A stretch of DNA of 5,827 nucleotides from Prevotellaceae bacterium. Its GTDB lineage: Bacteria > Bacteroidota > Bacteroidia > Bacteroidales > UBA932. Where the stretch lies: positions 1 to 5,827 of the forward strand of contig JAITQP010000306.1 of NCBI GenBank assembly GCA_031288885.1, given 5' to 3'. The position numbers were made by a program, and so were the translations under genes. Of the stretch, positions 5,598-5,672 are shown in pieces; position 1 is the stretch's first letter, and every line of letters begins with the position of its first letter. The notes beneath the pieces are model-generated. The model did not search any database, had not been told where the DNA came from, and saw only the letters and a list, made by a program, of their open reading frames with translations.

Positions 5598-5672
5598 TGT
5601 GTGTGTGTGTGTGTGTGTGTGTGTGTGTGTGTGTGTGTGTGTGTGTGTGTGTGTGTGTGTGTGTGTGTGTGT
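5598..5672. repeat. Uninterrupted TG/CA dinucleotide microsatellite, 75 bases (37.5 units)
   Basis: From T5598 to T5672 the plus strand is a pure alternation of T and G with no interruption; the minus strand is the matching AC repeat. It lies 296 bases upstream of the transporter ATG and inside no credible gene. Because the unit contains no stop codon, it creates open frames of Val-Cys or His-Thr repeats on both strands; these are artefacts. Dinucleotide tracts of this length are rare in bacteria. Tracts of this kind are known to change length by slipped-strand mispairing and can adopt Z-DNA under negative supercoiling. The true length in the source population may differ from the assembled length. 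Confidence 0.97.

Follow-up and report, generated by a model that had tools for sequence, protein, structure and literature searches.

Long TG/CA tracts within predicted leader frames as candidate slippage-switched attenuators of SusC-like transporter and regulator genes in a Prevotellaceae genus

Surface variation by DNA inversion is known in gut Bacteroidales. In Haemophilus influenzae, the TA repeats of the hif fimbriae lie between promoter elements and form a promoter-spacing repeat. As at hif, the locus described here has a repeat of two nucleotides ahead of a surface operon, but its repeat is located inside a predicted leader frame and not between promoter elements. A closer relative is found in pil1 and pil3 of Streptococcus gallolyticus, where the repeats are part of a leader frame: in one frame translation stops upstream of a premature terminator, and in the other frames longer peptides are translated through the terminator and expression is higher, a principle demonstrated by variants and mutants in the available part of that report (Danne et al., 2014; PMC3894217). 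The same source, in the part available, describes trp-type leader-peptide attenuators, in which leader translation also decides termination, with amino-acid supply as the signal (PMC3894217); at the present locus the predicted signal is instead repeat number. Our literature search, whose coverage lay mostly outside subscription papers, found the pil1 precedent and, among the papers listed, nothing comparable in Bacteroidota.

The DNA analysed (the window, 5,827 nucleotides) makes up the whole of contig C127 in a draft genome that totals 2.49 Mb over 320 contigs, at 79% completeness. Its minus strand encodes a SusC-like TonB-dependent transporter of 1073 aa (positions 2081–5302), the predicted controlled gene, followed by a SusD-like protein of 607 aa (245–2068), a pair that a first-pass annotation had proposed and that Pfam confirmed (SusC Plug, E = 2e-17; SusD_RagB, E = 1.5e-15). 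Tandem Repeats Finder recovered the pure TG tract reported by that annotation at 5598–5672 (period 2, 37.5 copies, 100% matches, score 150), and with the susC start codon at 5302 the gap between tract and transporter is the 296 bases originally given. On the gene strand the tract reads (CA)n, that is, alternating His and Thr codons in every frame. The contig stops 155 b beyond the tract. The 37.5 units are an assembly consensus and not a single-cell count, since all lengths come from draft assemblies in which the longest assembled tracts measure 114–118 b and many lie at contig ends.

The first-pass annotation considered the tract exceptional in length, which does not hold within its own genome. 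A (TG)10 pattern gave 666 forward and 716 reverse overlapping matches, and 27 + 14 = 41 tract starts resolved into 39 distinct tracts, the window tract included. One further tract was found at a contig edge (C22). The total is given as at least 40 because the patterns miss tracts whose 5' end has been removed by a contig edge. Nine of ten congeners also carry tracts, each with 6 to 36 starts by a single pattern that overlooks tracts starting with G, a limit that applies equally to congener genome G001; only G004 gave none. Outside the genus, a few tracts each were detected in 4 of 25 genomes from other genera of the family, and likewise in 2 of 24 genomes belonging to different families within the order. 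Within contigs, tract lengths span 28–112 b. Contig names contain 'k119', and because assembled tracts stop near 118 b, frequently at contig ends, longer unassembled tracts probably exist; with so many contigs ending in a tract, the family would help to explain the fragmented drafts. G004 is small (1.5 Mb), with just two weak SusC matches.

Could these tracts be neutral microsatellites or artefacts of assembly? Contigs often end in a tract, and junk or adapter-like sequence lies beside some of them, as at L206 (G002:C182), where a poly-C run and a sequence that we take to be Illumina adapter mark an assembly artefact. Against this, tracts recur at orthologous loci in separately assembled genomes, and a repeat survey of 398,023 b of own-genome contigs found expansion of AC/TG alone, in 42 runs of at most 115 b, with one CG run of 13 b, no other non-AC/TG dinucleotide run above 13 b and homopolymers of at most 12. 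Within these contigs, the latter result also speaks against general repeat instability. Strand, place and frame of the tracts, described below, are non-random. A neutral or artefactual origin is already contradicted for the family, and we regard it as highly improbable overall. Contigs L074–L113 contain tandem heptamers, one array reaching 86 b.

For family-level comparisons, the own-genome loci were combined with 67 regions from six congeners, picked mostly away from contig edges, as were 13 regions from other genera that were kept separate. Coverage differed among genomes: G001 contributed 30 of its 36 listed tract starts, G009 only the window orthologue and G007 none. Loci with short flanks were excluded by thresholds set per test, so that between 77 and 119 genus loci entered a given test.

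The tracts are oriented relative to their neighbours. With the TG strand drawn from left to right and ORFs consisting of the repeat excluded, the left gene in simple ORF calls points away from the tract at 26 of the 28 loci in the own genome that have such a gene, and at 52 of 56 in congeners. Thus the flanking gene on the promoter-like side is transcribed away from the tract in 78/84 cases, and for those 78 genes the tract on the gene strand is (CA)n. Tract and gene are separated by a median of 214 b (10th–90th percentile 77 to 574 b; 61 loci, other genera counted). A Pfam scan took in 24 of the 28 own-genome neighbours and identified eight TonB-dependent/SusC proteins (one of which, at L102, begins 1.6 kb away), two ECF sigma factors, a hybrid two-component regulator, an AraC regulator, two FGE-sulfatase-domain proteins, a beta-barrel, a BspA-like repeat protein and an aromatic lyase; the remaining 7 had no Pfam match. 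Searching the genus with the window SusC returned 30 loci, 28 of them alignable, with a tract upstream in 15 of the 28 and CA on the gene strand in 15/15.

The annotation also placed the tract outside any credible gene. Instead, the tract probably sits within one, a predicted short minus-strand leader frame. In the window, frame A (5584–5751) starts at ATG 5751 and encodes 55 aa, MHTYYYQQYPYPTLPQSCFLQLPKTSN followed by (TH)n and SSSR, with its stop codon at 5586–5584, +11 nt after the tract. Its start, 79 nt upstream of the tract, falls in the commonest bin among leader ATGs. An alternative frame B (5409–5804, minus strand; 131 aa) starts at ATG 5804, passes through the tract and stops at 5411–5409 (+186). 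Across the genus, an ATG located 45–140 nt before the tract with its frame open into the tract was present at 93/104 loci, compared with 31.1 and 36.1 in two sets of shuffled sequences (maximum 48). The same test on the TG strand was at chance (30/119; shuffles 32.5–35.9). The excess persisted for non-redundant loci (72/81 against 24.9–28.5) and in other genera (12/12 against 3.2–4.0), and was smaller when any ATG within 120 nt was accepted (93/104 against 58.0). Leader ATGs lie most often 70–110 nt before the tract. A single open ATG frame was found in 80 of 85 two-flank loci, none in four and two in one, the window being this sole locus with two.

The predicted leader peptides recur in families, yet are under weak constraint: the first, second and third codon positions showed 504, 451 and 606 differences (85 non-independent pairs, other genera too). 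Upstream flanks of the tracts are homologous to one another. A box abutting the tract, GTAACTYGCTGAGC, matched at 11 or more of 14 positions in 37/94 loci; on the gene strand it corresponds to the end of the leader, for example A-Q-R-V-T-stop in L042, and a stop of the form GTTAC..TA was present at 20/118 loci. Box plus TG retrieved 52 stretches from the GTDB collection, all titled 'MAG: Prevotellaceae bacterium', presumably termite-gut genomes. The possibility of a mobile element was rejected: box plus TG gave no matches in viral contigs, and orientation and frame point to function. Rfam searches of 19 sources gave eight matches, every one below its family threshold, and no known RNA family.

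Sites upstream of the leader resemble promoters. Scans in which each tract flank was treated alone used the Bacteroidota-type consensus TTG N19–21 TAnnTTTG, as given in the available part of its source (PMC7366714). Gene-strand matches at 8/9 positions or better were found 100–150 b beyond the tract at 19 loci (4.2 in shuffled sequences) and 150–200 b beyond it at 16 loci (4.1 in shuffled sequences), among 107 loci. Leader ATGs fell 18–45 nt past the -7 box in 24 of 58 cases, against 13.6 after permutation (p = 0.0005). In the window, the candidate promoter towards susC is weak (5757–5787, minus strand; TTG N20 TATTATTA, 7/9 consensus positions), its -7 box beginning 13 nt before ATG 5751; a sigma-70-type scan of 5000–5827 gave two promoter-like sites, with 1.1 expected by chance. 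A weaker gene-strand excess on the gene side, 50–100 b from the tract (41 vs 25.3 loci at 7/9; 7 vs 3.5 at 8/9), would be compatible with a second promoter after the tract. Five G001 loci (L345, L346, L353, L359 and L365) have a palindrome of the type GGGGCAAAAAATTTTTTGCCC between promoter-like site and tract.

On the other side of the tract, a gene-strand intrinsic terminator between tract and gene was called at 59/94 loci, against 6.4 in shuffled sequences, with differing stem sequences and the T-run about 100 nt past the tract; the rule used called none at the other 35. Upstream of genus SusC genes, terminators were found at 10/15 loci with a tract and at 3/9 loci without one that have at least 390 b of upstream sequence. 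Among 86 two-flank loci, 37 combine a terminator with an 8/9 promoter, 17 of them also having the TG-strand site described below, and 4 have none of the three. A simple terminator scan called none in the window between 5000 and 5827. However, a long minus-strand hairpin (5414–5474; -37.4 kcal/mol, z -5.7) with approximately four T residues after the stem occupies the place where most relatives carry a terminator, between tract and susC, and both orthologues of the window locus possess ordinary terminators. Frame A stops before this hairpin and frame B passes it. The 61 b of 5414–5474 form a near-palindrome, and an 84% copy of 5403–5471 is located at C221:246–314, beside another TG tract.

Reading frames leaving the tract were then sorted by whether they stop before the terminator or remain open through it. 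At least one 'before' and at least one 'through' frame were present at 76 of 77 terminator loci, compared with 40.8–46.2 in composition-preserving local shuffles (maximum 58), and at 36 of 37 non-redundant loci (22.2; maximum 28). On the gene strand, 116/231 frames were open across the stretch from tract to terminator, compared with 37 on the opposite strand. The structural-gene start codon lies a median of 226 nt past the tract (90 loci), and at 62 of these 90 some frame leaving the tract stays open until 30 nt or less from the structural gene, against 26.8–33.6 (maximum 42). At the assembled lengths, the leader at 54 loci stops before the terminator in 37 cases, runs through in 16 and ends inside in one, whereas 27.7 'before' cases would be expected from a random choice of frame (p = 0.004); this bias to stopping before is modest (49/80 against 37, p = 0.002).

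These features point to attenuation gated by translation, with tract length modulo 3 as the switch, a reading that we consider probable though well short of certain. A promoter before the leader frame would direct transcription of the leader, and the ribosome would translate from its ATG into (CA)n as a His-Thr repeat. Slippage by 2-bp units, presumably frequent in cells, would change the frame in which the ribosome exits. In one frame it would stop a few nucleotides after the tract, leaving the stem-loop to end transcription and susC expression low; in another it would run through the stem-loop, prevent termination and keep susC expression high, by analogy with pil1 as described in the available part of the report (PMC3894217). 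At the window locus, the exit frames stop +7, +11 and +186 past the tract, and the +186 frame passes the hairpin. With ATG 5751 as the start, the assembled length would correspond to 'stop before' and one extra TG unit (77 b) would give 'through'; with ATG 5804, the assembled length would already be 'through'. The predicted switch is better supported by the family than by its window member, because the window has two open frames, a weak promoter candidate and a hairpin with a weak T-run. At the family level, leader frame, promoter class, terminator class, orientation and the coexistence of before and through frames all stand out from sequence controls. Antitermination by a NusG paralogue of the UpxY type was considered and rejected; one NusG match was present in 8/11 genus genomes, two in G006 and none in G004 or G007.

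A long run of two amino acids in a leader frame followed by a terminator might instead be an attenuation sensor, in which scarcity of charged His- or Thr-tRNA makes the ribosome stall in the His-Thr repeat, with an effect on termination, and tract length only tunes the response. No antiterminator pairing was seen by eye in the single leader inspected, that of L042, and such a sensor would not need the near-universal open frame through the terminator, which makes it unlikely. The long frames open through the tract could also be contingency genes, that is, small His-Thr-rich proteins themselves toggled by slippage, with susC uncontrolled. Several observations render this very unlikely: by eye the through-frame sequences look unlike between the loci inspected, the long frame in the window has no Pfam match, and tract orientation to the gene is nearly constant. 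Moreover, through-frames have no phase preference relative to the structural gene (27/26/30), and this even spread agrees better with a ribosome shielding the terminator than with extension of the structural gene at its N-terminus.

Genome G001 served as a check on this anatomy and repeats it. Promoter and terminator positions had been set on the own genome and six congeners, with G001 left out of that step. Its loci showed terminators at 20/26 (1.8 in shuffled sequences, maximum 6; other strand 2 vs 0.3) and promoters at 50–300 b in 14/23 (5.65, maximum 10; other strand 5 vs 5.6). A leader ATG frame was present at 22/23 and switchable exit frames at 18/19; these frame tests were devised on all genomes pooled, with G001 split off only afterwards.

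The TG strand also carries promoter-like sites. In the window, one such site (5539–5569, plus strand; TTG N20 TACCTTGC, 7/9) faces the tract, away from susC, and belongs to a class enriched next to tracts: TTG N17–22 TANNNT occurs on the TG strand within 100 b before the tract at 51/94 loci, against 14.8 (maximum 24), with a spacer of 20 in 31 of the 51, and the opposite strand gave 12 vs 19.5. These sites raise the possibility that a TG-strand promoter drives a (UG)n RNA antisense to the (CA)n leader, which would be compatible with frame-dependent attenuation. In G001, a site within 60 b was present at 11/26 loci against 3.85 (maximum 8), but the opposite-strand control was also above shuffles (10/26 against 6.45, maximum 9). 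There was no excess of TG-strand terminators past the tract (4/81 against 3.8), and an antisense RNA leaves the leader frame and the through-frames unexplained. We therefore consider it quite unlikely as the explanation, and a (UG)n noncoding RNA model, our earlier reading, was later demoted. An RRM protein, considered as a UG binder, is encoded in 7/11 genus genomes. The TG-strand site could nonetheless be an antisense promoter like those beside Bacteroides PULs: as in DonS-type PUL antisense RNAs of Bacteroides, a promoter-like site upstream of susC faces away from it, whereas the RNA here is putative and no microsatellite is described in the available parts of those sources (PMC7366714, PMC10994844). 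The FopS sRNAs and RbpB of B. thetaiotaomicron likewise constitute a multicopy RNA layer aimed at susC; unlike the cis leader predicted here, these are small base-pairing RNAs, with no repeat described in the part of the source available (PMC11697453).

Tract lengths differ at orthologous loci, as the first-pass annotation's suggestion of slippage would have it. Transporters 84% and 82% identical to that of the window have tracts of at least 112 b (G005, contig edge) and 36 b (G009), compared with 75 b in the window; conservation is partial on the gene-proximal side and, between the window and G009, absent on the far side. Among other orthologue pairs, lengths were 40 vs 46 b (97% protein identity, near flanks conserved on both sides, same frame), 64 vs 66 b (96%, module and far flank replaced), 78 vs 98 b (86%) and 46 or 40 vs 71 b (about 80%). 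These lengths document change between species. Length variation would also be expected if slippage altered promoter spacing, regulator distance or Z-DNA. However, tracts are much longer than a promoter spacer (at least 28 b, against 19–21 b in Bacteroidota), the strongest gene-strand promoter excess lies 100–200 b beyond them, and the frame statistics are left unexplained, making this the least probable of the explanations. The tract as a spacer between promoter boxes was rejected as well: tracts span 28–112 b, and the enriched 19–21 b spacers adjoin the tract. Thus the annotation was probably right to suspect a slippage switch, given the differing lengths, the many surface and regulatory neighbours and the tract's place within a device that slippage could switch, and probably wrong about how it works, the change in promoter spacing that it proposed being unsupported.

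Comparison of close species suggests that the unit has moved. At L156 and L169 (SusC 96% identical), the module next to the tract differs, and so does the far flank. Alignment of the L169 right neighbour with six other genomes begins at base 254–256; with a seventh, G009, it begins only at base 1630. Neither a TG tract nor that SusC lies near five of the six loci (L389–L393), and the contig of the sixth (G010 L388) begins at the border. SusC, the tract and about 254 b beyond it thus seem to travel as a block with different neighbours in close species. A recombination joint at the tract was considered and later demoted, as the SusC-tract unit seems to have moved whole. In favour of such a joint, besides the differences at L156 and L169, flank matches between genomes numbered 370 pairs on the left, where flanks include coding sequence, and 37 on the right. 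G005 contains a dispersed repeat of about 190 b, on both strands, that matches the L156 right flank at 623–815; the flank has 124 matches in G005, most of those listed falling in this stretch.

The arrangement resembles that of pil1/pil3 in its promoter, short leader frame, repeat unit that is not a multiple of three, frame-dependent stop and surface gene, as far as the available part of that report describes them (PMC3894217). By the same account, the repeat there is GCAGA, five nucleotides long, and occurs at two pilus loci in a Gram-positive species (PMC3894217). Here the repeat is the dinucleotide CA (His-Thr), found in Bacteroidota-like bacteria at as many as about 40 loci in one genome, where its neighbours are nutrient transporters, sigma factors and regulators, and the mechanism is deduced from sequence. 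In their sequence-level features the two match; the novelty lies in the repeat, the phylum and the gene classes, and most of all in the scale. We infer that the same attenuation applies to dozens of genes, those for SusC and ECF sigma factors among them. Whether it forms a genus-wide bar-code, with length-modulo-3 attenuators governing about 40 genes in each cell, for transporters, sigma factors, regulators and other functions, and with smaller sets in related genera, we judge to be an even proposition. If so, slippage alone could create an enormous range of states of nutrient uptake and cell surface, a mechanism of two pilus loci would become a genome-wide regulatory layer, and a second, slippage-driven route of variation would exist besides DNA inversion. 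Such a device predicts that expression is set by length modulo 3 and not by length itself.

Predicted leader frames precede TG tracts in other genera too, at L211, L212, L214, L215 and L217 (G033), L220 and L221 (G029) and L222 (G028). The five G033 leader peptides are alike and start at -73 (MTCIVYKYAVKNTAKHLAVSEFLI), and a similar motif, LAVSNILL, is found in G029 L221.
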